A stretch of 64,000 bases of DNA from contig CAMIVR010000002.1 of NCBI GenBank assembly GCA_946402065.1, forward strand, positions 22,915-86,914, in the 5' to 3' direction. Under the pieces are notes generated by a model that was not told the origin of the DNA, did not search any database, and was given only the letters and a program-made list of their open reading frames with translations. The stretch is from an uncultured Brevibacillus sp. GTDB lineage: Bacteria > Bacillota > Bacilli > Brevibacillales > Brevibacillaceae. The translations under genes and the position numbers were made by a program. Positions 27,860 through 45,109 of this stretch are shown here, piece after piece; position 1 is the stretch's first letter, and each line of letters begins with the position of its first letter.

Positions 27860-27889
27860 AAAAAACCCCTAGGGAAATCCCCAAGGGGT
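27860..27889 (-). terminator. Rho-independent terminator after the MFS gene
   Basis: On the minus strand ACCCCT...AGGGGT encloses an inner GGGGA/TTTCCC pairing (27865-27889) and is followed by six U (27860-27865). It lies 27 bp after the MFS stop. Confidence 0.8.
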
Positions 27890-27915
27890 CGGGTAGTATC
27901 CGGACAGGCTTGGCG

Positions 27916-29151: not shown

Positions 29152-29273
29152 AGCAAATAACCCCTTTGTTAGCAGAATAGGTTGAAAAATCAATCCATCA
29201 GTTAGTTTTTCTGCTGCTATCGGGGTTACTACACTGGCTTCGCCTCTTTCTGTAGAGTAGTTAGACTGTTTTC

Positions 29274-29340: not shown

Positions 29341-30426
29341 TCACGATTCACAGTTGGCTACTCGCTGAAGCTCATTAATAACCGCTTGACTCGTTTCTTG
29401 CGTTGTAGCTGGTCCCCCCATATCAGGAGTTAATTTTGTCTGGTTTATCAATACTTGCTCAATCGACTGCAGCACGAGTTTACCCCAGGATTCGTACCCA
29501 AAGAAATCAAGCATTTGACTGGCAGACCAAAAAGCAGCCAATGGATTGGCGATCCCTTTACCGGCAATATCAGGTGCAGAACCGTGAATGGGCTCAAACA
29601 TAGATGGATAGTTCCGTTCGGGATTGATGTTTGCTCCTGCAGCCAAGCCAAGACCACCTGCCAAAGCCGCCCCCAAATCAGTGAGAATATCTCCAAACAG
29701 GTTGGAGGTGACCACCACTTCAAATCGCTCCGGCTGTTTGACAAAAAACATACTGGCTGCATCGACAAGATATGTATAAGTTGGAACATCCGGATATTCT
29801 AAGGCTAATTCCGAAAATATCTGGTCCCAAAAAACCATCGAGTAATTCAGCGCATTCCCTTTGCTTATGCTCGTCAACGACCTGCCCTGCTGACGTGCCG
29901 TCTCAAACGCATAGCGAATGATCCGCTCTGTTCCCTTTCGCGAAAAGACCCCCGTCTGTAATACTACTTCTTCTGGTTTTCCAGGATACAACCAATCTCC
30001 TGCTCCTGCGTACTCTCCTTCGCTGTTTTCCCGAATTACAAGCATATCGATCTGGTCTCGGTTCACTCCTTTCAAAGGACAAGGCGCGCCCGCCAACAGT
30101 TTGATCGGCCGGATGTTCACGTATTGGTCGAAACCTTTTCGAATCTTTAAGAGCAACTCCCATAAGGAGATATGGTCAGGAACTCCGGGATATCCTACTG
30201 CTCCCAAATATATGGCATCGAATTCCTTCAGTTTTTCCATGCCATCATCGTCCATCATTTTTCCATGCTTTACATAGTACTCGCAGCCCCATGGAAAATA
30301 CTCAAAAGCAAAGGAAAATCGACCGTCCAAATCTGCTATTTTCTGTAATAACTTTACTCCCTCTGCTATCACCTCCTTACCTATTCCATCACCAGCAATT
30401 ACAGCTATTCGATGCGTTTTGACCAA
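29341..30426 (-). CDS. Isocitrate/isopropylmalate-family dehydrogenase (tartrate or D-malate dehydrogenase-like)
   Basis: NAD-dependent beta-decarboxylating dehydrogenase of 361 residues. The family features are complete: IAVIAGDGIGKEVI at the N-terminus, the VIRENSEGEYAGAG motif and NLFGDILTDLGAALAGGLGL. The insert-free form with GYPGVPDHISLWELLLKIRK resembles tartrate/D-malate dehydrogenases (TtuC/DmlA) more than LeuB. TTG 30426 is the start, 7 bases after GAGGAGGA. It is the last gene of the 14-kb catabolic operon, about 95 bp after the binding-protein gene, so it may oxidise a 2-hydroxy acid end product. Exact substrate unknown. Confidence 0.85.
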   Translation of the reverse strand: MVKTHRIAVIAGDGIGKEVIAEGVKLLQKIADLDGRFSFAFEYFPWGCEYYVKHGKMMDDDGMEKLKEFDAIYLGAVGYPGVPDHISLWELLLKIRKGFDQYVNIRPIKLLAGAPCPLKGVNRDQIDMLVIRENSEGEYAGAGDWLYPGKPEEVVLQTGVFSRKGTERIIRYAFETARQQGRSLTSISKGNALNYSMVFWDQIFSELALEYPDVPTYTYLVDAASMFFVKQPERFEVVVTSNLFGDILTDLGAALAGGLGLAAGANINPERNYPSMFEPIHGSAPDIAGKGIANPLAAFWSASQMLDFFGYESWGKLVLQSIEQVLINQTKLTPDMGGPATTQETSQAVINELQRVANCES

Positions 30427-30479
30427 TTGTGTTCCTCCTCACTGAATAAACAAAAGATAATTGCTTGCCAAGCAGGCTA

Positions 30480-30499
30480 GCCGAAGGTTTCCCTTCGGC
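30480..30499 (-). promoter_or_regulatory. GNRA-capped intercistronic RNA hairpin
   Basis: On the minus strand GCCGAAGG-GAAA-CCTTCGGC: a perfect 8-bp stem with a GAAA tetraloop, without a U-tract. It sits in the gap between the binding-protein gene and the dehydrogenase gene. Such hairpins often protect the 3' end of binding-protein messages and set unequal expression within an operon; that role is inferred. Confidence 0.6.
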
Positions 30500-30520
30500 C
30501 TCACGCCTCACAGATTAGGT

Positions 30521-31834
30521 TTACGGCACGGGAATCGGTTTGACCAAAGCCTCATTGACTTTAAACAGGTCAGCCGGCGATTGGCAATCTTCACAATTGA
30601 TGTCGGGAACAGATGGAGCTTCCTTGATCGCATCTTTCGGGATTGGTTGAATTGTCATGCCGCCTGTAGGTATCGCATTCAACGCAGATACCAACGAGAT
30701 TTCCGGAACGAGCACCGGATCAAAAACTTCCGTTACGAATGAACTCGGAACCCTGCCCGTAGGGAAAGAGTTACAGCCATCTTTAAATTCATTTCCATCA
30801 CATGTCTTTACTTTATCCGAAGGCACCCACGGCAGTGGATACTCAATATTATGCGGCAGTTCGCTTTCTTTAAGGGAACCTGTCAACAGTTCCATCGCCA
30901 GCTTAAACGCATAGCCACCAACAGCAGGTGCGGATCCGCCAGAAACACCTTGCAAGCCTTGATCTTTTAACTCTAAGAGAGCATTGCGGAATCCATTTGA
31001 GTTTTCACCGACCACAGGAATCATCTTATGTCCTGTTTGTTGCAGTGCTTGTATGGCGCCATACTCACCATCCTGTGACCAAATACCATCTACGTCTGGG
31101 TGGGCAGCCAATGCCTTTAATGTATTTGTTTTGGATTGTACCTGATCCCAATTGCTGTAATATTCTGACACAATTTCAATACCAGGGTATTTTTTAAACA
31201 CTGACATGGCACCCTCGTACTGCATCATGTCTACACCCGTTCCAGCTACACCGCGGTTCATAAAAATTTTACCCTTGCCGCCGAGCAGGTTAACCAGGTA
31301 CTGAGCCGTGTTTTGGCCTTGTCCAGCTGTAATATAGCTCACATTGTACGCACACTTGTGCGTCACTCCGGAATCGTAGAAGAACATCTTGACCCCTTGG
31401 GAGCATGCTTGCTCAACGACCCCATTCAGTGCCTTTGGTGAGATCGGATAGGAAATGATGGCATCTGCTCCTGCTGCGACCATGCTTTGAATGTCGGAAA
31501 TTTGTTTCTGAGCATCCGCACCGGAAATAATCTTTGTGAATTCGACCATCTCGTCATATGGAGGCGTTTTTGCTAATGATTCTATAATATTTGCTGCCTC
31601 ATTTGACCAGGAGTTTCCACTGTAACTTAAATTCAAGAATATCTTGTATTTTTTCTTCTTCGTATTCGTTCCAGAAGCATTTGCTGAATCTCCACTGGCT
31701 TCTGTTGCGCCCCCAGCAGTCTCTTTCGTACCAGTCGTTGATTCGCTCGAACCGCAAGCTGCAACAAATAAAAGAATACATACCAGAGTCATGAGAAAAA
31801 CATTCTTCGTAATCAACCCTTTGCTAACCTTCAC
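30521..31834 (-). CDS. ABC transporter substrate-binding lipoprotein (sugar-type, Peripla_BP_4)
   Basis: Extracellular solute receptor of 437 residues. GTG 31834 is preferred (GAGGGGG 10 bases upstream). The signal peptide ends in the lipobox VAAC, followed by a Ser/Thr/Gly-rich linker. The fold is that of ribose-type binding proteins (IFLNLSYSGNSWSNEAANII, AAGADAIISYPISP, VDGIWSQDGEYGAIQALQ). It is longer than RbsB, with extra C-terminal segments containing a Cys pair (INCEDCQSP). Encoded with a two-domain ATPase and two permeases, it defines the importer of this catabolic operon. The ligand cannot be read from sequence. Confidence 0.88.
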   Translation of the reverse strand: MKVSKGLITKNVFLMTLVCILLFVAACGSSESTTGTKETAGGATEASGDSANASGTNTKKKKYKIFLNLSYSGNSWSNEAANIIESLAKTPPYDEMVEFTKIISGADAQKQISDIQSMVAAGADAIISYPISPKALNGVVEQACSQGVKMFFYDSGVTHKCAYNVSYITAGQGQNTAQYLVNLLGGKGKIFMNRGVAGTGVDMMQYEGAMSVFKKYPGIEIVSEYYSNWDQVQSKTNTLKALAAHPDVDGIWSQDGEYGAIQALQQTGHKMIPVVGENSNGFRNALLELKDQGLQGVSGGSAPAVGGYAFKLAMELLTGSLKESELPHNIEYPLPWVPSDKVKTCDGNEFKDGCNSFPTGRVPSSFVTEVFDPVLVPEISLVSALNAIPTGGMTIQPIPKDAIKEAPSVPDINCEDCQSPADLFKVNEALVKPIPVP

Positions 31835-31859
31835 TGGCTTAACCCCCTCGATAATCACT

Positions 31860-32891
31860 CTACGTTTGTTTGACTTCGTTGCTTACTCCTGATTCACTTG
31901 CTTTCGTCGATATCGATACCCCCTTTCGAAATTTGAAGAAGATGACATATAGTTCTTTCCGCAACAACCCAAGCACTCCCAAAATCATGAATCCGTATAT
32001 GAAAGTTTGCCAGCCTTGATTAATACCGAGTGCTTGAATTAATGTAGAAATGGTGGTGAGAAGAATTGCAGCGCCAATTGTTCCCAAGTAGTTCCCGCTT
32101 CCTCCCAAAATAGACGTTCCACCTATAACGACCATCGCGATAGAAGGAAGCAGGTAAGCTTCTCCCATGGCCAGAGTCGCTCCACCGGCATATCCGACAA
32201 TGATCATCCCCGTTATTCCCGCACATACAGAACTGACAATATACGTCAAGATGATGAGTGCAGTTACCGGCAATCCTGCTAGATAGGATGTTCTTCGATT
32301 ACTTCCAATCGCATACAGGCTTCTGCCGAATTTTGTTTGCTTTTGAATAACTGTTCCTACGATCGCAATGATGACGAGCAAATAAATCGGAATCGGAATA
32401 CCAGCCCATCGTCCGGCTATCAATTTCTCCAGAACCGCCGGGGCACCGCCTAGAACCGTCCCTTTTGTGTAGCCAAGCGCTACTCCAAAAATGATCATTT
32501 GCGTGGCGAGCGTCATGATAAACGAAGGAATTTGTAAAAAAGTCACTCCTAAACCGTTCACACAGCCGATAATCACCAAAATCAAGACGATCGACAGGAA
32601 CGAAGTCCACGTAGGTTCCATCCCCAACCAGGCGGTAGTCAATACGCCTGATAATGCAATCGTCGAACCGATTGACAAGTCCAGTTCTCCAATCAGAATC
32701 ACCAAGCCTTGACCAAACCCGATAAGCACCGTCAAGAAAGAAATGACGAGAATCGATTCAATCTGGCTCCATGAACCGAACGAAGGGCTAATGAATCGTG
32801 AGAACAGAATAAGCAAAGTTGACAGAAGATAGATGGCGATAATGTAAGCACTCTCTCCACGAGACAGTTTAGTAACAAATTGAGAAACCAT
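31860..32891 (-). CDS. ABC transporter permease (RbsC family), second
   Basis: Membrane permease of 343 residues with about 10 hydrophobic segments. The family loop is clear: GELDLSIGSTIALSGVL near the N-terminal third and GGTSILGGSGNYLGTIGAAI near the C-terminal third. It overlaps the preceding permease gene by 1 bp (ATGA type), and GGGGAGAGGTG precedes the ATG. Two different permeases suggest a heterodimeric channel. Confidence 0.9.
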   Translation of the reverse strand: MVSQFVTKLSRGESAYIIAIYLLSTLLILFSRFISPSFGSWSQIESILVISFLTVLIGFGQGLVILIGELDLSIGSTIALSGVLTTAWLGMEPTWTSFLSIVLILVIIGCVNGLGVTFLQIPSFIMTLATQMIIFGVALGYTKGTVLGGAPAVLEKLIAGRWAGIPIPIYLLVIIAIVGTVIQKQTKFGRSLYAIGSNRRTSYLAGLPVTALIILTYIVSSVCAGITGMIIVGYAGGATLAMGEAYLLPSIAMVVIGGTSILGGSGNYLGTIGAAILLTTISTLIQALGINQGWQTFIYGFMILGVLGLLRKELYVIFFKFRKGVSISTKASESGVSNEVKQT

Positions 32892-33850
32892 TACACCTCT
32901 CCCCGCTTTGCCAGTCTTATGCTGAGACTACCGATCAGGACAGCCACGATTAACACCAGTCCCTGGAAAATGCTTGTGTAAAACGTCGCAACCCCGACGG
33001 CAAACAGCGTTTTTTGGAGTAAGGCTAAAATTCCCGCGCCAATCATGCTGCCAATCACACTGCCTCTACCCCCGCCAAACTTCGTACCACCGATTGCTAC
33101 TGCTGCGAATACGAGCAATAAGAAAAGCGAACTGCCTGTAGGGTCACCGCTCGCCGTTTGCGCACTGAGCATCACCCCCGCCAGCCCATAGATAAGACTT
33201 GCCTTCACGTAGATAAAAAACTTCACACGCCGTACGGGAATGCCCGCCTGGAAAGCAGCCTTTTCATCCTCGCCGATGGCATAAATATACACTCCGTAAG
33301 ACGTTCGTCTGTATAAGAGCCATAGCACAACAAGCAATAGCAACACGATTGCCGCACCGGGAATCACACCGACTGGCTTCGTCAAGGAGGTAATAATTGG
33401 AGAGACGTTTCCACCCGGCGCTGGCATAACGACCAGCGCAATTCCCTGGCACATAATCATCGTTGCGAGCGTGACTGCGATTGACTGAACACCTACGTAA
33501 GCGATAAAAAAGCCGTTAATTACCCCTACCACTATACTGGCGGCCAATACCAATCCAATCGATACGAAGACGTCAGATGCCGTTACGGCATGCGAGCTTG
33601 CCAGAATGACATTTGCCAGCACAACCACGCCACCGACGGATAAATCAAAACCTCCTGACAAAATAATCAGTGTCAAGCCAGTAGCCGCTATTGCCTGCGC
33701 TGTCATATTGACGATCAGATTATTCATAGAAAAAGCTGTAAAAACATTTTCTCCCGTGGATGCATAGATCGCGAAGATCATCACAAAAAGGATCGCTGAA
33801 ACAACAGAACCGTTAGAGAGACCTTTCCTTACGAGTAAACTTGTAGGCAT
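32891..33850 (-). CDS. ABC transporter permease (RbsC family), first
   Basis: Permease of 319 residues and about 9-10 membrane segments. The family loops are SGGFDLSVGGVVVLANVI and GGTKFGGGRGSVIGSMIGAG. CGTAGGAGGTAC precedes ATG 33850. Lies 23 bp after the ATPase gene and overlaps the second permease. Same importer. Confidence 0.9.
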   Translation of the reverse strand: MPTSLLVRKGLSNGSVVSAILFVMIFAIYASTGENVFTAFSMNNLIVNMTAQAIAATGLTLIILSGGFDLSVGGVVVLANVILASSHAVTASDVFVSIGLVLAASIVVGVINGFFIAYVGVQSIAVTLATMIMCQGIALVVMPAPGGNVSPIITSLTKPVGVIPGAAIVLLLLVVLWLLYRRTSYGVYIYAIGEDEKAAFQAGIPVRRVKFFIYVKASLIYGLAGVMLSAQTASGDPTGSSLFLLLVFAAVAIGGTKFGGGRGSVIGSMIGAGILALLQKTLFAVGVATFYTSIFQGLVLIVAVLIGSLSIRLAKRGEV

Positions 33851-33873
33851 TGATGCTGTACCTCCTACGCCAT

Positions 33874-35358
33874 TTAATGACCGGTAGCCGCTGATAAGAG
33901 TGTTTCCAGAGTGGCTTGCTCCTTTGGTACATCTGAAACGATACTCCCTTTATAAAACACCAGACATCGATCGCATACATTCAACAGTTCGGACAACTCC
34001 GTGGAATACCAGAGGACAGAGCCCCCTTCATCGCAAAAAGACCTGATCACCTCGTAAAACACTTGCTTGGTTCCCACATCTACTCCTCTTGCAGGATCAT
34101 ACAGTAATAAATACTTTGATCCTGTCATCAGGGCACGTGCCACAATCGCTTTTTGCTGATTTCCGCCAGAGAGCGATTCGATATTCATCTCAATGAATTT
34201 TGGGTTCATCTGTACTTTCTTTGCATGTGGCTCCGCAGTTTGCCGTTCCAGCTTATTTCGTAAGAGGCCATAGCGGGCTGCTTTTGATAGTGAAGACAGC
34301 GTGATGTTCGCAAGCGTTTTATGACCGGGCAGTATTCCCTCTGTTTTTCTTTCTTCTGGAACAAAACTAATTCCATAACGCAACGCTTTTAGTGGACTGG
34401 TAATATTTGCAACCTGGCCATTTACACTGATTGTACCGCCGCTCACCTGCTCAACTCCGGTCAGCATCTTGAACAGATCAGACTGTCCTTGTCCTTCTAA
34501 ACCCGCAATTCCCAATATCTCTCCTTTTTTGAGCGTGAAGGAGACGTTTTGAACTTTTCCTCCTTGCAAATTTTTTACTTCGATGCCAGGTTGATCGAAT
34601 AGTAGGTCTTCTCCCCTAGCTGAAACTGAGACCTCCTGTGCATCGCCTAGCATCATTTGAAAAATTTCTCTGTTCGAAACCCCTTCTAAACTTACGGTTT
34701 CAATTGTCGTACCGTTACGTAGAATCGTAGCGTGCTGGCATACTCTGCGAATCTCATTCAAACGATGTGAAATATAGAGAATCGTCAAATCTGCTGTCTG
34801 AAAGCGCTCCAGGATGCCAAACAGCCATTCCGGATCAGGCAGCGCCGCCGTAGGTTCATCAAGCAAGAGCATTTTTGGCTTGTGGCTTAAGGCCCGTGTG
34901 ATCTCCAGCTTTTGCCGTTCCGCTAAGGTTAAGGTACCGACTTCCTGGGTCGGTGAAATATGTCCGAGATCAAATTCCTGCAAAACATGTCGGGCGTGCT
35001 CGTTGTTTTCCTTTTTCGAGATAAGTAGATTGCCCTTTTTTCGCATATTGGGCAGAGCAAGATTCTCTGCCACCGTAAGATTCGTTAAAAGGCTTAATTC
35101 TTGAAAAGCAGTCGATACCCCAGCATGCCTGGATTCCACGATTGTATTCGGATGGAACGGACGGCCATCTAATAGAATCGATCCCTCGTCACACTGAACC
35201 AGTCCGCTTAGAATCTTAATCAATGTTGATTTACCCGCCCCGTTCTCCCCGATAATGGCATGGACTGCTCCTCGCTTGACATTGAAAGATACGTTGTTTA
35301 GGGCTATTGTCGCTCCATATTGTTTTCTTACATCTGCGATCTCCAACAATGCACTCAC
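33874..35358 (-). CDS. Sugar-type ABC transporter ATP-binding protein (two NBDs)
   Basis: RbsA/MglA-like fused ATPase of 494 residues that powers import. GTG 35358 is the start (AGGAGGGG 6 bases upstream). The first NBD has Walker A GENGAGKST, signature LTLAERQKLEI and Walker B KMLLLDEPTAALP. The second NBD has the degenerate Walker A typical of the family (GLEGQGQSDLF) and signature LSGGNQQKAIVARAL. The gene lies 33 bp after the aldehyde dehydrogenase gene. Confidence 0.93.
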   Translation of the reverse strand: MSALLEIADVRKQYGATIALNNVSFNVKRGAVHAIIGENGAGKSTLIKILSGLVQCDEGSILLDGRPFHPNTIVESRHAGVSTAFQELSLLTNLTVAENLALPNMRKKGNLLISKKENNEHARHVLQEFDLGHISPTQEVGTLTLAERQKLEITRALSHKPKMLLLDEPTAALPDPEWLFGILERFQTADLTILYISHRLNEIRRVCQHATILRNGTTIETVSLEGVSNREIFQMMLGDAQEVSVSARGEDLLFDQPGIEVKNLQGGKVQNVSFTLKKGEILGIAGLEGQGQSDLFKMLTGVEQVSGGTISVNGQVANITSPLKALRYGISFVPEERKTEGILPGHKTLANITLSSLSKAARYGLLRNKLERQTAEPHAKKVQMNPKFIEMNIESLSGGNQQKAIVARALMTGSKYLLLYDPARGVDVGTKQVFYEVIRSFCDEGGSVLWYSTELSELLNVCDRCLVFYKGSIVSDVPKEQATLETLLSAATGH

Positions 35359-35391
35359 AATACCCCTCCTGTTCACGCCAACATTCGTGCT

Positions 35392-36813
35392 TTAATTACG
35401 ATTGAATACAACGAGCTTCAACTCGGTCATTTCTTCTATCGCGTACTTTACACCTTCACGCCCCATACCGCTCTCTTTTACGCCTCCATATGGCATATGA
35501 TCAACCCGGAACGTCGGGATATCATTTATCATGACTCCACCGACATGCAGTTGTTCAGCCGCAGTCAGCGCCACATTGACGTCATTCGTATAGATCCCGG
35601 CCTGCAGTCCAAAGCGCGAATCATTTACGTGCGAGATCGCTTCTTCTACCGAGCTCACTTTATTAATCACGACTATCGGGGCGAATACTTCCTGACACGA
35701 TACTTTCAGACTAGGCGCCGCATCTAAGATGACCGTAGGGTGCAGGACATTTCCCTCTGCCTTGCCGCCAGTTGCCACCTTAGCTCCCTGCTGCCTTGCT
35801 TCCTCGATCCAGTCAAGCGCCCGTTTCACGTCCTGGGAAGAGATCAGTGAGGCAATATCGGTAGCTTCATCCAATGGATTTCCGATCGTTAGCTGCTTGG
35901 TTTTATCGATAAACTTTTCAACGAACGAAACGTAGAGATCCTCATGCACATATACGCGCTGCAGAGAGATGCACACTTGGCCTTGGAACGAAAAGGCTCC
36001 CGTCACACAGCGAGAAATGATTTTATCGATATCGACCCCTTTGTCCACAATCACAGCTGAGTTGGAGCCGAGCTCCAATGTCACACGTTTGAGTCCCGCC
36101 CGGTTGCGAATGCTGATACCGACGGAAGGGCTACCGGTAAACGTAATCTTGTTAATTCGCTCATCTGTTACAATCTTGTCACCGACAACACTGCCCCTGC
36201 CTGTAACCACATTAAAAATTCCTGGTGGCAAGCCAATTTCATCCAACAGCTCAGCGATCAGCAATGCGGACAATGGCGTCTGCATGGCTGGTTTTAAAAC
36301 AATCGTATTTCCCGAGGCAATGGCGGGACCAACTTTGTGGGCAACCAGATTCAGCGGAAAATTGAACGGTGTGATGGCTCCTACGACACCAACAGGCTCA
36401 CGCACGGTATAGGCAACCCGTCCTTCACCACCTGGTGCTGCATCTAGCGGAATCGTTTCTCCATGCAATCGCTTCGCTTCTTCAGCAGAAAACTTATACG
36501 TCTGAATCGTTCGCTGCACTTCTGCACGGGCGTGGACGATCGGCTTGGAAGCCTCCAAGGCAAGAATTTCTGTCGCACGATCAGCATTCTTTGCAAGTGA
36601 ATGAGCTAGTTTCTCCAGAATCTCCGCCCGTTTGTGGCTGGGCATTTTGGCTATCACTGTTTTTGCCGCATACGCTGCTTGTATGGCTTGTTCAACCTCT
36701 TCGGGAGTAGCCACGGGGATCTCGGCAATTGTTTCACCAGTATGCGGAGAATGATGTGGTACATATTCACTGCCAGTTACCCAGGCTCCATTGATATATA
36801 ACTGTTTTTTCAT
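35392..36813 (-). CDS. Aldehyde dehydrogenase
   Basis: NAD(P)-dependent aldehyde dehydrogenase of 473 residues, cytosolic. Motifs: the cofactor loop FTGSPSVGISIRNRAG, the general-base Glu in VTLELGSNSAV, and the catalytic Cys in FSFQGQVCISLQ (about 280). It belongs to the broad group of succinate-semialdehyde, lactaldehyde and glyceraldehyde-phosphate dehydrogenases. In this operon the omega-aminotransferase should yield a semialdehyde, which this enzyme would oxidise to the acid (inference). The site before ATG 36813 is weak, so expression may depend on coupling to the upstream gene. Confidence 0.9.
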   Translation of the reverse strand: MKKQLYINGAWVTGSEYVPHHSPHTGETIAEIPVATPEEVEQAIQAAYAAKTVIAKMPSHKRAEILEKLAHSLAKNADRATEILALEASKPIVHARAEVQRTIQTYKFSAEEAKRLHGETIPLDAAPGGEGRVAYTVREPVGVVGAITPFNFPLNLVAHKVGPAIASGNTIVLKPAMQTPLSALLIAELLDEIGLPPGIFNVVTGRGSVVGDKIVTDERINKITFTGSPSVGISIRNRAGLKRVTLELGSNSAVIVDKGVDIDKIISRCVTGAFSFQGQVCISLQRVYVHEDLYVSFVEKFIDKTKQLTIGNPLDEATDIASLISSQDVKRALDWIEEARQQGAKVATGGKAEGNVLHPTVILDAAPSLKVSCQEVFAPIVVINKVSSVEEAISHVNDSRFGLQAGIYTNDVNVALTAAEQLHVGGVMINDIPTFRVDHMPYGGVKESGMGREGVKYAIEEMTELKLVVFNRN

Positions 36814-36862
36814 CTGTCAACACCACTTTTCAAGAAATGTCTGCATTCCATTCAATCGCCGA

Positions 36863-37612
36863 TCATCTGGCAACAATTTCAATCCCGTTTTCCGCTAGCG
36901 CTGCGAAAATAGCCCGGGCCAGTTGCGGGGCACCAGGAGTATCGCCGTGGATACATACCGTATCAGCCTGAATATCGATATCTTCACCTGTGTTGGTAAT
37001 CACTTTCCCATTTTTTACCATACGTACTACACGAGCTGCTGCGGCTTCAAAATCCTGAATGGTTGGTCCAAAACGCGTCAGAACGTTGAAGCCGTTGTTC
37101 TTGTGCTCACGATCAGAGTATACTTCCTTGGCGACAGGGATCCCCATTTGATCCGCAACCATTACGACAGCAGAATTGTTTAAGGCATATACAATCATCT
37201 GATCATTGATTTGTGCAATCGCTTCCAAGAGAGGGCGGGCTATTTTTTCATCTTCCATCGCTGCTATGTACAAGGCACCATGCGGTTTGCAGTGGTTTAT
37301 TTCAACGCCGTAGATGTTGGCAAATTCTCGTAATGCCCCTATTTGATAAATGACATAGTCCTGAATTTCTTCTGGTGTACAATTCATGTATCTTCGGCCA
37401 AATCCAAGCAAGTCGGGAAATCCTGGGTGAGCTCCAACACTTACTCCATATTGCTTCGCTAATTGAACCGTTCTCCGCATAACGGACGGATCCCCCGCAT
37501 GAAACCCGCAAGCGATGTTAACAGAGGAGATATATTTCATCATCTCTTCGTCATTGCCTAGCTGATACAGTCCGAAGCTTTCCCCCATATCACAGTTAAT
37601 GTCAACTTTCAT
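36863..37612 (-). CDS. pxpA: LamB/YcsF family protein (5-oxoprolinase subunit A, PxpA-like)
   Basis: Protein of 249 residues matching YcsF/PxpA along the full length: VDINCDMGESFGLYQLGND at the start, NIACGFHAGDPSVMRRTV, GVSVGAHPGFPDLLGFGRR and VCIHGDTPGAPQLARAIF. PxpA works with PxpB and PxpC in ATP-dependent opening of 5-oxoproline to glutamate (family knowledge). Here it follows biotin carboxylase by 10 bp, a combination that points to a carboxylation-dependent variant. GGAGAGTGAGGAG precedes the ATG. Confidence 0.92.
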   Translation of the reverse strand: MKVDINCDMGESFGLYQLGNDEEMMKYISSVNIACGFHAGDPSVMRRTVQLAKQYGVSVGAHPGFPDLLGFGRRYMNCTPEEIQDYVIYQIGALREFANIYGVEINHCKPHGALYIAAMEDEKIARPLLEAIAQINDQMIVYALNNSAVVMVADQMGIPVAKEVYSDREHKNNGFNVLTRFGPTIQDFEAAAARVVRMVKNGKVITNTGEDIDIQADTVCIHGDTPGAPQLARAIFAALAENGIEIVAR

Positions 37613-37622
37613 CTTCCACTCC

Positions 37623-38978
37623 TCACTCTCCTGATGGATGAAAACGATACTGGTCTAAAAACCTGGTGGTGTATTGCCCTTTAAGAAATTCTTGGCGCTC
37701 AACTATATCTTTTAACAAAGGAAGATTTGACTTGATTCCCTCGATTTTTGTCTCCCTTAAAACTTGATCGAGTTGGCCAATCGTTTCACTTCTGCTGGAA
37801 CTCCAGGCGATGATTTTGCCAATCATCGGGTCATAAAAATGAGATACGTGGCTGCCTTCCTCAACTGCAAAGTCAAATCTGGCTTTCCCCTGCGGCAATT
37901 CCAGCTTGGTGATCGTTCCAGGCGAGGGAAAATAGGTAACCGGATCTTCCGCATAGACACGCGCTTCGATGGCGCTGCCAAGCAGGTGAATGTCCGCCTG
38001 TGCCAATGGCAGCGGTTCTTCAGCGGCTATTTTCAGCTGCCACTCGACCAGATCAAGTCCGGTAATCATTTCGGTTACGGGATGTTCCACCTGTAAACGC
38101 GTATTCATCTCGAGAAAGTAGAAGTTGCCGCTCTCATCAAAAATAAATTCCATTGTTCCGACATTGGTATAGCCAATCTGCTGTGCTCCGGACACCGCGG
38201 TATCACAAAGCGTTTGGCGGATTGCTTGATCAAGAAACGGAGATGGTGCTTCTTCGATGACTTTTTGATTTCTCCGTTGGATGGAGCACTCTCTCTCAAA
38301 GAGGTGAACGGCATTGCCAAATTCGTCACAGGCTACTTGTACCTCAATATGCCGTGGATTCCGGATGAATTTTTCCAGATATACAGCTCCATTGCCAAAA
38401 TAAGCAGTGGATTTTTGGATTATTGTCGTATATGCCGCTTGCAGCTCATCCTCGCTCTCGATTAGCTGCATGCCAATTCCGCCTCCACCAGCACTTGCTT
38501 TAAGCATTACAGGGTAACCTAGCGCTTTGGCGACTTCTATTGCCTCGACCAATGATTCAAGCGGTTTGTCACAGCCAGGTACAATCGGTACGCCAGCCTT
38601 GCTCATTTGTTTGCGCGCCTCTATTTTGTCGCCCATTAACTGAATGACATCATGCTTTGGCCCAATAAAGCGAATCCCATCTTCTGCACAGCTTTTGGCA
38701 AATGCCGCATTTTCCGAGAGAAATCCGTAGCCAGGGTGAATCGCCTCAGCATTACAAGCCTTTGCAATTGACAAAATTTTCGAGCCGTTCAGGTAGCTCT
38801 TCAGCGGTTGCGATTCGCCAAGCGGATAGCATTCATCCGCTTCCTTGACAAATGGAGCGCCGGCATCAGCGTCAGCGTAGATCGCAACTGTTTGAATGCC
38901 CAAGTTACGGCATGTCCGGATAATTCGACGGGCAATTTCCCCGCGATTGGCAATCAGCACTTTTTTAAACATAGCCAT
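37623..38978 (-). CDS. Biotin carboxylase (AccC family)
   Basis: ATP-grasp enzyme of 451 residues that carboxylates biotin on a carrier protein. Visible: FKKVLIANRGEIARRIIRTC, the Gly-rich ATP loop KASAGGGGIGMQ, the pair ECSIQRRNQKVIEEAPSP, and the active-site MNTRLQVEHPVTEMITGLDL. AAAGGGGAA lies 7 bases before ATG 38978. Because it is placed between a carrier gene and PxpA-like and PxpBC-like genes, I read it as the carboxylase part of a dedicated enzyme and not as the general acetyl-CoA carboxylase subunit. Confidence 0.93.
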   Translation of the reverse strand: MAMFKKVLIANRGEIARRIIRTCRNLGIQTVAIYADADAGAPFVKEADECYPLGESQPLKSYLNGSKILSIAKACNAEAIHPGYGFLSENAAFAKSCAEDGIRFIGPKHDVIQLMGDKIEARKQMSKAGVPIVPGCDKPLESLVEAIEVAKALGYPVMLKASAGGGGIGMQLIESEDELQAAYTTIIQKSTAYFGNGAVYLEKFIRNPRHIEVQVACDEFGNAVHLFERECSIQRRNQKVIEEAPSPFLDQAIRQTLCDTAVSGAQQIGYTNVGTMEFIFDESGNFYFLEMNTRLQVEHPVTEMITGLDLVEWQLKIAAEEPLPLAQADIHLLGSAIEARVYAEDPVTYFPSPGTITKLELPQGKARFDFAVEEGSHVSHFYDPMIGKIIAWSSSRSETIGQLDQVLRETKIEGIKSNLPLLKDIVERQEFLKGQYTTRFLDQYRFHPSGE

Positions 38979-38992
38979 CTGACACTTCCCCT

Positions 38993-39244
38993 TTAGTCTG
39001 CTGATTCGACACGGATAATCGCAATCTCTTGCCCGACATCGACGACATCCTCGCTGTGTACTTTGAATTCGACAAGAACGCCATCATATTCGGCCTTGAT
39101 TTCATAGAAATTCTTCATCACTTCGATAATGCCCAAGGTGTCACCGACTTTTACTTGCTGGTTTTCTACGACGAACACTTCTTCTTGCGGACTCGGTTTG
39201 CGATAGAATACGCCAGGTATAGGAGAAAAAATGGACTGTAGCAT
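38993..39244 (-). CDS. Biotin carboxyl carrier protein (short, biotinyl domain only)
   Basis: Stand-alone biotinyl domain of 83 residues. ATG 39244 (MLQSIFSPIPGVFYRKPSPQ) is the start, 5 bases after GGAGGGG. The target Lys is in the loop LGIIEVMKNFYEIKAEYDGV; the usual carrier motif is EAMKM, and here Val replaces Ala and Asn follows the Lys. The N-terminal extension and linker of AccB are missing. It lies 14 bp before accC and 42 bp after the PxpC-like gene. It most likely shuttles carboxybiotin between these two. Confidence 0.88.
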   Translation of the reverse strand: MLQSIFSPIPGVFYRKPSPQEEVFVVENQQVKVGDTLGIIEVMKNFYEIKAEYDGVLVEFKVHSEDVVDVGQEIAIIRVESAD

Positions 39245-39286
39245 GATTACCCCTCCGTATGTAATGGCTTGCCTGTTCAAAACAAC

Positions 39287-40255
39287 TCAGATTCGTTCCT
39301 CGACTTGCTTAATCTTTTCCATCATCTCTTTTTGTGCTGCCAAGGCTTGTTCGATCGTGACTGCAGTAAAGTGAATTTTTTCATTTGTTTTCGCTTGCGC
39401 CATAATATTGAGATCGGCTGTAATCACAGATCCAAGCGTTACGAACCCTCCTGCTGTCACAGCATCTCTTAGCAACACAATCGGCTCGATCCCATCGGGG
39501 ATTTGAATCGATCCTACTGGATAGAAGTTGTCAATTACGTTAGAAGGATTACTGCCCGCCCCAAACGGCTGCTCTCTGGGGACAAACGCCAATCGTTCCC
39601 CTTTTAAGCGGTAGCCGACACGATTGGCATCAGGAGTGATCAGCCACTCCGTTTGAAAGAACAATGATTTGCTCTCCTCTGTAAAACGATAGCTGCACAG
39701 TCCTACCAACACGCGAATTTCACTTGTCTTGCGAAAGTGAGGAGTGTATTGAGCGGGAATCGTTACGCCAGGAGTGACAGACTTATTGTTCATGTTGCCG
39801 ATTGGGAGCATATCTCCTTGCTTTAAGCTTCTTCCTTCATAGCCGCCAATTCCGGACAGGGAGTACGTGGAACGGGAGCCCATGACAGGCGGTGTTTCGA
39901 TTCCGCCTGCTACAGCCACGTACGCTCTGGCACCGCTCTTAAGATGGTCGAAGGACAGTAAATCGCCGTTTTTTACTCGGATTGCTTCCCATTGGGGGAC
40001 CGGTACGCCGTTTATCTTTGGAGGTAATTCAGCACCGGTAATGGCAATGATCGTCTCGCACAGAAATTCGAGTTCCGGACCCAAGTAGGTTATTTCCAGT
40101 GACGCTGCTGTTTTTGCGTTTCCCACGAGCAAATTCCCCAAAGTGTATGAGTAGAAGTCCATCGCGCCTGAAGGCGGAAAAGCAATGGAATAATATCCAT
40201 ACCTCCCATGATCTTGTACTGTCGTCTCAAGACCGGGTTTTAGAACCCTAATCAT
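39287..40255 (-). CDS. pxpC: Biotin-dependent carboxyltransferase-type protein (PxpC/KipA, AHS2 domain)
   Basis: Protein of 322 residues with the AHS2 (allophanate hydrolase subunit 2 / KipA) fold: VLKPGLETTVQDHGRYGYYS, AFPPSGAMDFYSYTLGNLLV, ALEITYLGPELEF-like strand, and RSTYSLSGIGGYEGRSLKQG. The same fold forms the carboxyltransferase part of urea carboxylase and the PxpC subunit of 5-oxoprolinase. The C-terminal tail (about 295-322) is a charged helix. It overlaps the PxpB-like gene by 8 bp, so the two products probably form one complex. Confidence 0.9.
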   Translation of the reverse strand: MIRVLKPGLETTVQDHGRYGYYSIAFPPSGAMDFYSYTLGNLLVGNAKTAASLEITYLGPELEFLCETIIAITGAELPPKINGVPVPQWEAIRVKNGDLLSFDHLKSGARAYVAVAGGIETPPVMGSRSTYSLSGIGGYEGRSLKQGDMLPIGNMNNKSVTPGVTIPAQYTPHFRKTSEIRVLVGLCSYRFTEESKSLFFQTEWLITPDANRVGYRLKGERLAFVPREQPFGAGSNPSNVIDNFYPVGSIQIPDGIEPIVLLRDAVTAGGFVTLGSVITADLNIMAQAKTNEKIHFTAVTIEQALAAQKEMMEKIKQVEERI

Positions 40256-41135
40256 TGTACAACCCCCTCATTACATCCTCTGTAAATCGTGCTAGATTAC
40301 CAATTACTTGATCAGGAGTGTAGGTTATACGTTTCATGCGATACTTGAAACTGCCATCTTCCACTTCTTTGCGTATCGACTCAAATTCGTCCAGGTCAAT
40401 TGGGCGATAGCGAAAGATGTCGCCTTGACGCGGAAATACCATTGATTCTGTAAAATCGGCCAATCGCTGCGTTTTATCAAAGACAGGCGCTGGCGCCATA
40501 CCGAGCATCTGGTATCCCCCTGCTCCTTGCACAGGATATATGCAAGCAAAAGCTCCACCGAATCCAAACGTTCGTTCAAGGGTAAACGTTCGGGGCCGCA
40601 AGTATTTCGGAGTCTGGATTTGCTGATCGCGGGGAACGAGTTGGAAACTCGTCCCCAAACCTGGAACAAATCCAAGCATTGTAATCAAGTACGGGGCTCT
40701 GGTCAAAGCCTCAATAAAATCGGCATGGTTGGTGAATCCATTGACTTGGGCAGAGTACTCAAAATCGCCAATCTCTTTTTCCTGATGTCGGTCTCGGAAC
40801 CTCATCGCTACTTCATGTGTCCACGGATCATTAAACAAAATAGGGACGTCGACTACTCTTGAAACGATTTCAATTTCACTCAAATCTTTTGTATGTTGTT
40901 CAATTCCCTTCAGTTCCTCAATCAGTGTGTCTGGATGCAAGATCATCGGGTCAAGTTGAATGAGACAAGAACCATTCCCCGGACAGATATCGATGACGCC
41001 CTCGATGTCTCTTTCCCTCAATTTGTTTGCAATCGCTAACGAACGAAAGTTTGCATCGAGCCTCATTTCTTCGGAAAGCTCGACGAATACAAATCCGTCT
41101 CCGCCGTAAGAATAGCGAAATGTAAATTCATTCAC
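40248..41135 (-). CDS. pxpB: PxpB/KipI-like protein (AHS1 domain, extended)
   Basis: Protein of 295 residues of the AHS1 (KipI) family, about 50-70 residues longer than E. coli PxpB or B. subtilis KipI. The family core is recognisable though diverged: TMLGFVPGLGTSF, IYPVQGAGGYQMLGMAPAPV and DIFRYRPID. The C-terminus has an added helical tail (RITYTPDQVIGNLARFTEDV). The start is GTG 41135 behind TGAGGTGAT. With PxpC it would form the carboxyltransferase/hydrolase part of the predicted split enzyme. Confidence 0.87.
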   Translation of the reverse strand: MNEFTFRYSYGGDGFVFVELSEEMRLDANFRSLAIANKLRERDIEGVIDICPGNGSCLIQLDPMILHPDTLIEELKGIEQHTKDLSEIEIVSRVVDVPILFNDPWTHEVAMRFRDRHQEKEIGDFEYSAQVNGFTNHADFIEALTRAPYLITMLGFVPGLGTSFQLVPRDQQIQTPKYLRPRTFTLERTFGFGGAFACIYPVQGAGGYQMLGMAPAPVFDKTQRLADFTESMVFPRQGDIFRYRPIDLDEFESIRKEVEDGSFKYRMKRITYTPDQVIGNLARFTEDVMRGLYND

Positions 41136-41177
41136 CGTATCACCTCATTTCTGAATCGTAACAGTCGTGAAAGAATA

Positions 41178-42551
41178 TTAGAGACTGGCTTCAACCTCTT
41201 TCAATGTTTCTCGCAAAATCTCCAGAATTTCACCGATTTGTTCTCTTGTGATGATTAGAGGCGGGCAGAGCGCCACAATATCGGTATTGTCAATGGTAAT
41301 TGCCCTTGTAATCAAACCTTTGGACATCGCTTTGTCAAACACTTGATTGGCCATCCGTACAGTTGCAGGGAATGCTTTTTTCGTCGCTCTGTCTTGAACA
41401 AATTCCAGTGAGGCAATCAGACCTCTTGACATTACATTACCGACAATCTCAAATTCTTTTGCCAGTTCAGCCAGTCCCTGCTTAAGGACTTGTCCCATAG
41501 CTTCAGCATTTTCTACCAGCTTTTCATCTGAAATGATATCGAGATTTCTCAATGCTACCGAACATGCTGTCGGGTGAGCGCTGTATGTATATCCGTGTGG
41601 CAGCACTTGATTTTGGTTGGAAAGCTCAATGATCTCCTGATGGATTCGTTCACTGATGACCACGCCGCCAAGCGGAATATAACCACTCGTCACGCCTTTT
41701 GCAAACGTCATTAAATCCGGGGCGACGCCTTCGTGTTCCATCCCGAACCATCTTCCGGTACGGCCAAAACCGGTAATAACCTCGTCAGCGATCATTAATA
41801 TCCCGTGTTGATCACAAATCTCTCTCACTTGCTTAATGTATCCCGGCGGTGGAACAATGACGCCCCCGGCACCCTGGATTGGCTCGAGAATAATCGCTGC
41901 GATTGTTTTCGGATCTTCTTTCTCAATCAAATCTTTAATACTTTGAACCGCACAAGCTCCCGAACAATCGGATTGACAAGATTCACAGCGATAACAATGC
42001 GGAGCAGCGGCATGGATAAAACCACTCGCCAGCGGCCCACCCATTTGGCGGAATATTGGAATACCCGTAGCACTCGTCGCTCCCATCGAAATACCGTGAT
42101 AAGCACGATATCGCGCAATGATCTTAAACCGATCCGGTTCACCTTTTAGCTTGAAATAATGGCGTACCAGCTTGAAGGCCGTATCATTTGATTCAGAACC
42201 ACCTGAAGTGAATTGAACAGCATTGAGGTCTCCAGGTGCGAGCGAAGCAATTTTTTCTGCCAAAAGCACTGCTGACTCATGACTAAAGCGGTTAAAGGAA
42301 TGGCTGAAAGCCAGTTTTTCCATTTGTGCTTTCGCCACTTCCGCGATTTCCTTTCGCCCATGACCAATATTTACGTTCCACAAAGAGGCCAAACCATCGA
42401 TATAGCGTTTTCCGTCAACGTCATAAAGGTAAATCCCTTCACCTCGCTCCAATAACACCATTGGTCCCTGATTGAAATTGTCTTTGACCGGGCTGGAAGG
42501 GTGCAGATGATGACGCTTGTCAAGATCTATCAGTTTTTCGGTTTTGTTCAC
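41178..42551 (-). CDS. Class III (omega) aminotransferase
   Basis: PLP enzyme of 457 residues of the omega-amino acid/GABA-pyruvate transaminase group. The cofactor Lys is in MTFAKGVTSGYIPLGGVV (about 285); the Asp/phosphate motifs SGGSESNDTAFKLVRHYF and IADEVITGFGRTGRWFG are intact. A Cys-rich stretch CYRCESCQSDCSGACA (about 195-210) is present in a region where relatives carry CYRC-type cysteines. GTG 42551 is preceded by AAAGGAGAA. As the first enzyme of the operon it would convert an omega-amino acid to a semialdehyde. Confidence 0.92.
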   Translation of the reverse strand: MNKTEKLIDLDKRHHLHPSSPVKDNFNQGPMVLLERGEGIYLYDVDGKRYIDGLASLWNVNIGHGRKEIAEVAKAQMEKLAFSHSFNRFSHESAVLLAEKIASLAPGDLNAVQFTSGGSESNDTAFKLVRHYFKLKGEPDRFKIIARYRAYHGISMGATSATGIPIFRQMGGPLASGFIHAAAPHCYRCESCQSDCSGACAVQSIKDLIEKEDPKTIAAIILEPIQGAGGVIVPPPGYIKQVREICDQHGILMIADEVITGFGRTGRWFGMEHEGVAPDLMTFAKGVTSGYIPLGGVVISERIHQEIIELSNQNQVLPHGYTYSAHPTACSVALRNLDIISDEKLVENAEAMGQVLKQGLAELAKEFEIVGNVMSRGLIASLEFVQDRATKKAFPATVRMANQVFDKAMSKGLITRAITIDNTDIVALCPPLIITREQIGEILEILRETLKEVEASL

Positions 42552-42635
42552 GGCTATGCTTCTCCTTTTCGTTATCTGAAATTATTTAGAGCGGAAGTAG
42601 TGCAAGTATCACCTCCCTTCAAAAGGGGACATTCG

Positions 42636-43358
42636 TTATGATTTATTAAATAATTTAATATAACTTAACTTTGTATTTTCAAAATGAACCTGCATAGCTT
42701 CCTTGGCTCCTTGGGAGTCGCTCTCAGCTATGGCTTGGTAGATTTTGAAGTGCTCATGGTCATAACTTATTTTCTGCTCCATCGGTATCTTCATGTCCTC
42801 CATCCTCCACTCCTCAATTCCCTGCAAGAACTTTTTGGAGAATAGCTTGACGATTTGCAACAACATCTTGTTATGGCTTGCTTTTACAATCGCTACGTGA
42901 AAATTGAGGTCTTCAACAGCACCGAGCCTTTGCTCGAACACAGCTCGCTCCAAGCTTTCATAGGCCTGTTTAATATTGAGCAGGTCAGAACTCGTGCGCC
43001 GCTGTGAGGCCAGACAGGCAGCCTGCACTTCTATTCCTTCCCTTACTTCAAGGAGTTCAAGAATATTAATTTTGTTGCCTTTTTGCTGAATGATGTTATT
43101 TAGCCCATCGATCAGCTCTTCGTTGCTGTCTTTCTTTAAAAAGATGCCGACACCGGGTAATGTATCTACCAATCCGGAAGCTTCCAGTACGCTAAATGCT
43201 TCCCGCACTGCGCTTCGCGAAACTGACAGTTGTTCTGCCAGGTCTCTTTCTGAAGGTAATTTATCTCCCGGTTTCAACTCTCCCCGTCTAACAGATTCCT
43301 GGATTTGCTTAATGATTATTTGATAAACACGTGGTTTTTTAATCGTAGAAAAATTCAA
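42636..43358 (-). CDS. GntR-family (FadR/FCD) transcriptional regulator
   Basis: Regulator of 240 residues and first gene of the catabolic operon. TTG 43358 (MNFSTIKKPRVYQII) is preferred: AGGAGG is 7 bases upstream, while the GTG at 43364 lies only 2 bases from it. The N-terminal winged helix is typical (GELKPGDKLPSERDLAEQLS, VSRSAVREAFSVLEASGLV). The C-terminal helical FCD domain (about 100-230) should bind an acid metabolite, with metal-type His in NFHVAIVKASHNKM. Two TGGTC-A-G(A/G)CCA sites stand 60-160 bp upstream; these fit FadR-type operators. Confidence 0.92.
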   Translation of the reverse strand: MNFSTIKKPRVYQIIIKQIQESVRRGELKPGDKLPSERDLAEQLSVSRSAVREAFSVLEASGLVDTLPGVGIFLKKDSNEELIDGLNNIIQQKGNKINILELLEVREGIEVQAACLASQRRTSSDLLNIKQAYESLERAVFEQRLGAVEDLNFHVAIVKASHNKMLLQIVKLFSKKFLQGIEEWRMEDMKIPMEQKISYDHEHFKIYQAIAESDSQGAKEAMQVHFENTKLSYIKLFNKS

Positions 43359-43408
43359 ACACACTTCCTCCTCTTTTATTTGCTGAACGTAATGATTTGA
43401 ATTTTAGC

Positions 43409-43428
43409 TGGTAGGGTGGTCAGACCAG
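43409..43428. promoter_or_regulatory. GntR operator-like site 1
   Basis: TGGTAGGGTGGTCAGACCAG contains the perfect inverted repeat TGGTC-A-GACCA (43417-43427), the form expected for FadR-type GntR regulators. It lies 51 bp before the regulator start, between promoter and gene. A second copy with one change in the repeat lies 88 bp further upstream. Confidence 0.72.
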
Positions 43429-43496
43429 AATCACAAAAATATAGCGCCCTTTACTCTTTCTCATAGGCTTTCTTTTGTTTGAACTTGAATAAAAAT

Positions 43497-43516
43497 TGGT
43501 AGGGTGGTCAGGCCAG
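43497..43516. promoter_or_regulatory. GntR operator-like site 2
   Basis: TGGTAGGGTGGTCAGGCCAG is identical to site 1 at 19 of 20 bases; the palindrome is TGGTC-A-GGCCA (43505-43515). The 88-bp distance (about 8.4 helical turns) would allow binding of two dimers. Possible -10 elements lie between the sites (GCTATATT near 43437-43444) and upstream (TAATAC near 43525), but no promoter is unambiguous. The remaining 43517-43912 is AT-rich near the operon and otherwise holds nothing I can name. Confidence 0.7.
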
Positions 43517-43912
43517 TTAGATATGTATTAACTGAAAAATAATACATTTTGAATTATTCCACCTTTTTTAATCGTTGTCAAGTTATTTTAAATATTTTAA
43601 ATATTGTAGCCGGAGTATTTATCTACATTATTTATTTGCGATAACTCCTGCAGACTTTGTCTTTTCTCCATCTGAATCGCTCCCGGACACAACTTATTGC
43701 AACATATTACAGTTGTGCCGCTTGCGTGTATGGGAAGAAAAAAACTTACCGCCCCGCGGCTGCAGGCGAAGGATGGTAGCGAACAGCTTGTTGTCTTCGC
43801 TTGTGTGGAACCGGCGAAGCATCTCTGTCCCCTACGCCAATGCCCTGACAGAAGCATATTTTTGCTCGGATTGCAGATGCTACCCATACAAAATCGCAAA
43901 GGAGCCAAGAGT

Positions 43913-44227: not shown

Positions 44228-45109
44228 CTATTTATCCATCAGCTTAAACAATGCTTGCGTCCCACTTTCTTCCTCACCCATCCTGGCCAATTCGTCATAA
44301 AGCGATTTGGCCAGCTCCAGCCCGGGAGTAAGCAAGCCCATCTCTTTCGCCGACTCCAGGGCGATCGTCATGTCCTTGATGAAGTGCTTGACGTAAAAGC
44401 CCGGGGCAAAATTGCCGGCCAGCATCCGCGGGGCGAGATTGCTTAACGACCAGCTGCCCGCAGCACCGGCTCCGATACTGTTGAGAACGTTGCCCGGATC
44501 TAGCCCCGCTTTCTTGGCGTACACCATCGCCTCGCAGACACCGATCATGTTAGAAGCAATCGCGATCTGGTTGCTCATTTTTGTGTGCTGTCCAGCCCCC
44601 GCCTTGCCTTGCAGGATAATATTCGTGCCCATCAGGGCTAAAATCGGCTGCACTTCGGCAAAGGCCGCTTCGTCGCCGCCGACCATAATCGTCAGCTTTG
44701 CTTCCCGCGCACCGACATCTCCGCCGGAAACTGGCGCATCGAGGGAAAACAGCCCTTTTGCTTTTGCTTCCTGATAAATTTTCTCCGCCAGCGATGGTTT
44801 GCTTGTCGTCATGTCGATCAGATAGCTGCCTGCTTTGGCATGATTGACAATCCCGTTTTCCCCGAGATACACTTCTTCGACGTCACTCGGGTATCCGACC
44901 ATCGTAATCATGACATTCGCTTTCGCAGCGACATCTGCCGGTGTGTCCTGCCATTGTGCTCCCGCTTGCAACAGCTCGTCGGCCTTGGATTTCGTCCGGC
45001 TGTAGACGACGAGCGGATAGCCGGCGCGCAGGATATGACCGGCCATGCTTTTGCCCATCACGCCGACCCCGATAAATCCTACTACTGTGTTTTCCTGATT
45101 TAGGCTCAC
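44228..45109 (-). CDS. Beta-hydroxyacid dehydrogenase (3-hydroxyisobutyrate / tartronate semialdehyde reductase family)
   Basis: NAD(P)-dependent enzyme of 293 residues. Rossmann start GFIGVGVMGKSMAGHIL; substrate motif DAPVSGGDVGAREAKLTIMV; catalytic Lys in GAGQHTKMSNQI (about 175). This is the family of 3-hydroxyisobutyrate dehydrogenase, GarR and GlyR1-type reductases; the substrate cannot be fixed from sequence. GTG 45109 is the start behind AAAAGGTGA. It is followed by a strong terminator, and 108 bp separate it from the spermidine-synthase-like gene, so the two may be cotranscribed. Confidence 0.9.
   Translation of the reverse strand: MSLNQENTVVGFIGVGVMGKSMAGHILRAGYPLVVYSRTKSKADELLQAGAQWQDTPADVAAKANVMITMVGYPSDVEEVYLGENGIVNHAKAGSYLIDMTTSKPSLAEKIYQEAKAKGLFSLDAPVSGGDVGAREAKLTIMVGGDEAAFAEVQPILALMGTNIILQGKAGAGQHTKMSNQIAIASNMIGVCEAMVYAKKAGLDPGNVLNSIGAGAAGSWSLSNLAPRMLAGNFAPGFYVKHFIKDMTIALESAKEMGLLTPGLELAKSLYDELARMGEEESGTQALFKLMDK

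Follow-up and report, generated by a model that had tools for sequence, protein, structure and literature searches.

What does a cell gain from a biotin carboxylase, a biotin carrier and a urea-carboxylase-type carboxyltransferase when the hydrolase encoded beside them resembles PxpA, a component of the 5-oxoprolinase PxpABC? This question is raised by a gene cluster of an uncultured Brevibacillus sp. (GCA_946402065.1, contig CAMIVR010000002.1), from which a stretch of 64,000 nucleotides, here called the window, was analyzed. Thirteen minus-strand genes follow one another from 43364 to 29341 with intergenic gaps of -8 to 94 bp, in the order GntR/FCD regulator, class III aminotransferase, AHS1, AHS2, biotin carboxyl carrier protein (BCCP), biotin carboxylase (BC), LamB/YcsF hydrolase, aldehyde dehydrogenase (ALDH), CUT2 ATPase, two permeases, binding protein, and dehydrogenase. 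An earlier note on this DNA had described such a run of closely spaced or overlapping genes, with all six carboxylase- and PxpA-type parts as separate genes lying together, and both points hold, as do its gene families, which are upheld by Pfam and NCBIfam domain matches; its thirteen genes "following" a GntR regulator are thirteen in all, with the regulator first and twelve genes behind it. From the predicted proteins and their relatives, we conclude that the operon probably encodes a biotin-dependent lactam-opening system with its own importer and downstream pathway. The presumed catalytic core consists of five genes:

40248..41135, minus strand: AHS1, urea-carboxylase-type carboxyltransferase subunit (PF02682)
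39287..40255, minus strand: AHS2, carboxyltransferase subunit (PF02626; TIGR00724 above cut-off)
38993..39280, minus strand: BCCP, with a predicted biotinyl lysine in VMKNF (PF00364; NF005457 above cut-off)
37623..38978, minus strand: BC (PF00289, PF02786, PF02785)
36863..37612, minus strand: LamB/YcsF (PxpA-like) hydrolase (PF03746; NF003814, 336 bits, cut-off 226)

Judged by its sequence, AHS1 is of the biotin type and not a PxpB. It scores 127.8 bits with the urea carboxylase model versus 58.9 with the PxpB model TIGR00370 (cut-off, 145.55), and its K177 aligns with the general-base lysine K1605 of urea carboxylase and with the lysine of a bacterial urea carboxylase. In the alignment, this lysine is present in 38/38 non-PxpB AHS1 rows, while 6/6 PxpB rows, which form a separate clade, have arginine; the placement of the lysine is taken from this alignment because residues 177 to 207 of the AlphaFold model, lysine included, have a pLDDT below 50. 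AHS2 stays below the cut-off of the PxpC model (NF045499, 227 versus 500 bits), and both subunits find their best match among solved structures in urea carboxylase (3va7 for AHS2). The urea carboxylase model TIGR02712 (cut-off, 1303.85 bits) matches in parts over four genes, which score 567.7, 261.2, 127.8, and 21.3 bits. The carrier lysine of VMKNF is kept in every relative whose row covers the region (the row of locus L016 is incomplete). In BC, we compared 14 positions of Escherichia coli AccC, which we take to be its ATP, bicarbonate and biotin residues (E. coli numbering), and 12 of them are kept in all 26 rows, window included: K116, K159, H209, Q233, K238, E276, E288, N290, R292, V295, E296, and R338.

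Biotin chemistry is likely, since AHS1 and AHS2 belong to the urea carboxylase type, the catalytic lysine is present, and both BC and the carrier appear competent. The earlier suggestion of urea-carboxylase-type biotin chemistry rather than PxpABC is thus reinforced by K177, by the PxpB and PxpC models that are not reached, and by a separate pxpBAC locus in the same genome, whose PxpB carries the usual arginine. Because the genome has this separate locus, 5-oxoproline need not be the substrate of the operon. Within the 13 operon proteins, a Pfam scan found no amidase (allophanate hydrolase) domain and no hydantoinase/oxoprolinase A or B (HyuA/HyuB-type) domain.

Is this combination conserved? 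We compared AHS1 neighborhoods from genome contigs, genomes and plasmids, each stretch reaching no farther from AHS1 than about 10 to 13 kb, and after removal of duplicates obtained 51 loci with a urea-carboxylase-type AHS1. In 47 of these, AHS2 is present together with two or all three of PxpA, carrier and BC; L005, L045, L061, and L122 fall outside this definition. The 47 core loci were picked among the best AHS1 matches and include several congeners or strains of the same species, so that they are not 47 independent cases. They hold AHS2 and carrier throughout (47 each), PxpA in 44, and BC in 41, and belong to Bacillota, Actinomycetota (Prauserella, Rubrobacter), Pseudomonadota, and haloarchaea. 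What is conserved as a unit is the core of five genes, PxpA-BC-BCCP-AHS1-AHS2. Its parts carry the public names acetyl-CoA carboxylase, allophanate hydrolase, urea carboxylase, and 5-oxoprolinase subunits. On haloarchaeal plasmids, cores were observed at L031, L033, and L059 to L062, often with a divergent BC; in L062, PxpA and BC lie several kb off, and neither was seen in the stretch of L061. Transfer of the core between bacteria and archaea is possible.

The genes next to the core suggest a substrate class. In 5/47 loci (Aestuarium L064, as well as L107, L113, L119, and L121), the core adjoins genes for a gamma-aminobutyrate (GABA) transaminase (GabT) and a succinate-semialdehyde dehydrogenase (SSADH; GabD), both above NCBIfam cut-offs; L109 is a sixth locus with a GabT-like match only, without a model scan. 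A rough estimate with no formal null, assuming at most three such pairs per about 5 Mb and 20 kb per locus, gives about 0.6 expected in 47 loci. Because the opening of 2-pyrrolidone gives GABA, GabT-GabD beside the core is the pathway expected for 2-pyrrolidone, and the five pairs therefore fit a sequence from lactam over omega-amino acid and semialdehyde to diacid. Transaminases and ALDHs of other subfamilies adjoin the core elsewhere. The large subunit of a molybdenum hydroxylase of the aerobic CO/xanthine dehydrogenase type is found in 21/47 core loci:

L007-L014, L032, L040-L042, L103, L104, L106, L108, L112, L114, L116, L117, L120: molybdenum hydroxylase beside the core

For the enzyme of L041, the only locus scanned, the best model is aerobic CO dehydrogenase, below cut-off, and in several loci we noted what, judged by sequence, are presumably MoxR, CoxE, XdhC, and MocA-like companions. 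Molybdenum hydroxylases of this class oxidize N-heterocycles next to the nitrogen and can thereby yield lactams, so that the one beside the core perhaps makes a lactam from an N-heterocycle. Three lines, namely PxpA in 44/47 loci, GabT-SSADH in five, and molybdenum hydroxylase in 21/47, thus point to lactams as the substrate class. On an Acidiphilium plasmid, bioB (biotin synthase) lies downstream of the core (L039:12150-13130), in agreement with a need for biotin.

Behind a sigma-54-type activator there is regularly another AHS1-AHS2 pair, which has no biotin parts itself and in many cases comes directly after the core:

L041:13038-14903: second AHS1-AHS2 pair (similar in L005, L040, L042, L045, L103-L106, L108-L111, L114, L116-L118)

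The lysine is kept in the second AHS1 copies checked (L005, L040, L041, L042, and L045), and these pairs may borrow the biotin carboxylase of the core for another substrate. For Mycobacterium smegmatis, the structure 9yx5 shows, according to its title, two AHS1/AHS2-type proteins in association with an acyl-CoA carboxylase complex, which hints that AHS1/AHS2 are able to borrow a biotin carboxylase; we found no publication on this structure in the openly licensed literature. The passages of PMC4617892 compared describe induction of these M. smegmatis proteins under nitrogen limitation. Sigma-54-linked copies are included in the wider AHS1 counts at E 1e-60 (13/38 other genomes of the family and 31/397 other genomes of the class) and are probably among the 1,883 protein clusters of the AHS1 search at E 1e-30; the one other genome of the same genus holds a sigma-54-linked copy only.

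What, then, does the window itself degrade? Next to its core, it encodes a set of enzymes and a complete importer:

41178..42551, minus strand: class III omega-aminotransferase, by model not a GABA transaminase (PF00202)
35392..36813, minus strand: ALDH, nearest to the lactaldehyde dehydrogenase model and not SSADH (NF040648, 552 bits, cut-off 650)
33874..35376, minus strand: CUT2 (ribose-type) ABC ATPase (PF00005, two stretches)
32891..33850, minus strand: CUT2 permease 1 (PF02653)
31860..32891, minus strand: CUT2 permease 2 (PF02653)
30521..31858, minus strand: CUT2 solute-binding protein (PF13407, Peripla_BP_4; model pLDDT 86.7)
29341..30426, minus strand: D-malate/tartrate-type beta-decarboxylating dehydrogenase (TIGR02089, tartrate dehydrogenase, 490.9 bits, cut-off 470.4)

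The aminotransferase is below cut-off for all 25 NCBIfam models among the matches listed (271 versus 676 bits for the GABA transaminase model NF005376), with an amine transaminase (6fyq) as its nearest solved chain, and the ALDH reaches 369 bits with the SSADH model TIGR01780 (cut-off, 646). Because both enzymes fail these models, the substrate of the window is probably a lactam other than 2-pyrrolidone. The dehydrogenase had been called a 2-hydroxyacid-type decarboxylating enzyme; the decarboxylating family stands, and within it a D-malate/tartrate type is the better description, with the tartrate dehydrogenase/decarboxylase 3flk as best solved match.

On this basis, the following steps and their regulation are inferred for the operon. 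BC and carrier would form carboxybiotin, from which the AHS1/AHS2 carboxyltransferase would transfer the carboxyl group, likely onto the ring nitrogen of the lactam; the PxpA-like protein would hydrolyze the activated, N-carboxylated ring, and CO2 would be lost from the N-carboxy omega-amino acid thus formed. Transamination of the omega-amino acid by the aminotransferase would then yield a semialdehyde, which the ALDH would oxidize to a diacid, the presumed substrate for decarboxylation by the tartrate/D-malate-type dehydrogenase. GntR would keep the operon repressed via two 14-bp boxes as long as neither the imported compound nor a product is present. As for the compound itself, a hydroxylated gamma-lactam such as 4-hydroxy-2-pyrrolidone is a speculative candidate that we name with considerable doubt. 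The 4-hydroxy gamma-lactam would give 4-amino-3-hydroxybutyrate, malate semialdehyde (a 2-hydroxyaldehyde), malate, and pyruvate; the R form would lead to D-malate, and malate would likewise be the end point for a 3-hydroxy lactam. Lactaldehyde dehydrogenase, the nearest model of the ALDH, is a 2-hydroxyaldehyde enzyme, and the TIGR02089-type family also takes in D-malate dehydrogenases. A route via malate would fit all genes, with each enzyme used once.

The importer supports a hydroxylated-lactam substrate only loosely. It is complete, with a tandem ATPase, BPD_transp_2 permeases and a Peripla_BP_4 binding protein, and the fold of this binding protein matches ribose-type proteins; the fold ranking of the binding protein, with sugar/polyol-type proteins on top, decides nothing on the ligand. 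The clade of the binding protein has members in several phyla, at 56 to 72% identity to the window in the alignment, and among the 120 matches listed, relatives are 58 to 76% identical (Paenibacillus sp. sgz302251, 67%). No close relative was found in the phylum search (398 genomes; other matches at most 36% identical), nor any match at E 1e-60 in 344 genomes of one family of the class, and both results show little. Of 13 plasmid records with a relative of the binding protein, seven were opened (L096 to L102): in four (L096, L097, L098, and L102) the relative has a lactonase-family gene no more than about 10 kb away, amidase and nitrile hydratase genes follow it in L100, and none of these genes was seen near it in L099 and L101. 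In the Caballeronia locus L102 (6158-12696), a 40% relative accompanies a 3,5-dioxohexanoate:acetyl-CoA acetone transferase (above cut-off) and the lactonase-family gene, a combination suggestive of a pyrone (triacetic acid lactone) pathway.

Several observations weigh against a lactam-opening system of this form. The carrier motif is VMKN rather than MKM, and the two remaining AccC positions, H236 and I287, vary (N and L, respectively, in the window). In 6/47 loci no BC, and in 3/47 no PxpA, was seen near the core, and amidase genes lie near the core in L031, L032, and L060. At E 1e-40, an AHS1 of the window type occurs in only 2/397 other sampled genomes of the phylum (L122 and L047), neither with the full core. 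The earlier note had proposed to check whether the neighborhood of the core, with transaminase and ALDH, is stable; the five genes are, as described above, while the particular types of transaminase, ALDH, importer, and dehydrogenase encoded in the window occur together in 0/47 other loci, and the downstream pathway therefore rests on one locus. The earlier note's route from lactam over omega-amino acid to diacid is favored by the GABA transaminase/SSADH pairs beside the core, and the window's own two enzymes fail those models, so that the best neighbor evidence comes from relatives. The nearest solved relatives of the binding protein are mostly named sugar/polyol binders. Since the genome holds seven PF00180 proteins, of which the operon's dehydrogenase is the weakest match to the domain, this dehydrogenase need not be special. 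A Thioclava leuB beside the core was considered as a second case of such a dehydrogenase and rejected as a true LeuB (469.7 bits; cut-off, 353.2).

Three other explanations were weighed against this evidence. The core could carboxylate urea, guanidine, or an open-chain amide or ureide, with PxpA or another hydrolase freeing ammonia and the transaminase pathway handling the carbon part; the best solved matches of AHS1 and AHS2 are to urea carboxylase, and two haloarchaeal loci as well as Rubrobacter have amidase genes close to the core, with an amidase-like match in L105. We nevertheless consider this improbable, as the 13 operon proteins lack an amidase domain, a PxpA-like gene accompanies 44/47 cores, and GabT-GabD pairs do not fit urea. 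That the operon encodes a 5-oxoprolinase (PxpABC), with biotin parts that are there by coincidence or merely stimulate it, appears very improbable: NCBI models do name the hydrolase PxpA, and several AHS1 relatives are publicly annotated as 5-oxoprolinase subunit B family, but AHS1 and AHS2 do not reach the PxpB and PxpC models (scores as above), residue 177 is lysine in place of arginine, and the genome has its separate pxpBAC locus.

The operon might also join two pathways on one transcript, the core on one side and transaminase, ALDH, importer and dehydrogenase on the other, for example lactam scavenging together with the use of a hydroxylated amine or sugar acid. In its favor, the full gene set was seen in no other locus, and the importer clade is found without the carboxylase core in the rhizobial plasmid stretches opened. 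Set against it are the tight spacing (49 bp between ALDH and PxpA, 42 bp between transaminase and AHS1) and the transaminases and ALDHs of other subfamilies that adjoin the core elsewhere, and we regard it as rather unlikely. A single lactam-opening operon with importer and downstream pathway remains the preferred reading.

How would such a lactam-opening enzyme relate to known systems? It shares BC, biotin carrier, and AHS1/AHS2 with general-base lysine with urea carboxylase/urea amidolyase (Kluyveromyces lactis 3va7, 5i8i), which is one chain with allophanate hydrolase, whereas the operon has four separate chains with LamB/YcsF and does not reach the TIGR02712 cut-off. With PxpABC it has in common the PxpA-like hydrolase and AHS1/AHS2 relatives, and differs from it in the added biotin parts, the unreached PxpB and PxpC models, and the change of arginine to lysine. 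By analogy, the proposed enzyme would resemble urea amidolyase up to carboxyl transfer and PxpA afterwards, and by definition it is a member of neither. In Aspergillus nidulans, the lactam utilization locus lamA, lamB, and gatA combines a LamB-family protein with a GABA transaminase for 2-pyrrolidinone. This locus is fungal; growth on 2-pyrrolidinone is listed in the passages of PMC8683493 compared. CapAB, OplBA and the hydantoinases would share with the operon the outcome, an ATP-coupled opening of a cyclic amide, yet the mechanisms proposed for them in the compared passages of PMC8453981, where PxpB and PxpC are described as ATP-hydrolyzing, all proceed via an activated lactim, in contrast to the carboxybiotin proposed here. 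Unlike CapAB and the hydantoinases, moreover, the operon has no hydantoinase/oxoprolinase A or B domain. We found no account of the five-gene system in the openly licensed literature, a limited set from which absence from print does not follow, and the literature passages compared make no mention of a biotin-linked lactam opening.

We tentatively put forward that a third ATP-driven way of opening lactams may exist, by split urea-carboxylase-like N-carboxylation and LamB/YcsF hydrolysis, distributed over four phyla and plugged into GabT-GabD, molybdenum-hydroxylase, and D-malate routes; the window adds a variant of the core with an unmatched downstream part. If true, a large group of genes now named as subunits of four different enzymes would constitute one unrecognized cyclic-amide enzyme system; N-carboxylation would turn out to be a generally applicable route for cleaving stable amides, and it would offer a tool to use on lactam monomers and solvents. 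The GabT-GabD-linked loci make the proposal directly testable with 2-pyrrolidone, a cheap and available substrate.

The control region lies upstream of the regulator gene, and its features, together with the spacing of the genes, suggest that the 13 genes are likely a single operon under their own GntR regulator:

43553..43581, minus strand: promoter-like site TTGACA-17-AATAAT with extended -10 (consensus scan, match 11/12, consensus match only)
43497..43510, minus strand: first 14-bp box TGACCACCCTACCA, probable GntR operator, exact repeat of the second box
43409..43422, minus strand: second 14-bp box TGACCACCCTACCA, probable GntR operator, exact repeat of the first box
42636..43364, minus strand: GntR/FCD-family regulator (PF00392, PF07729)

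The site at 43581-43553 is the best promoter-like match of the region, in which such sites occur at chance level (25 versus 22.9 expected). The two exact boxes are 88 bp apart, between the promoter-like site and GntR; at up to two mismatches, the window holds 2 copies versus 0.15 expected, and at up to one mismatch, these two are the only copies in the 5.84-Mb genome. Because a backward-read control pattern gives 3, this rarity by itself says little, and the exact pair says more.

The G+C content is 44 to 48% in the operon and 49 to 57% in its flanks; a similarly low value is found elsewhere in the window (12-16 kb), so that a foreign origin of the operon is a hint only. Upstream of GntR by 863 bp, on the same strand, a gene at 44228-45109 resembles 2-hydroxy-3-oxopropionate reductase, below the model cut-off. 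Behind the operon, a gene for a major facilitator superfamily (MFS) transporter (27866-29193) follows on the same strand after 147 bp and might be a fourteenth cotranscribed gene, but a weak promoter-like site (29303-29274) lies ahead of it; the transporter gene ends at the strongest terminator-like site (27887-27866).

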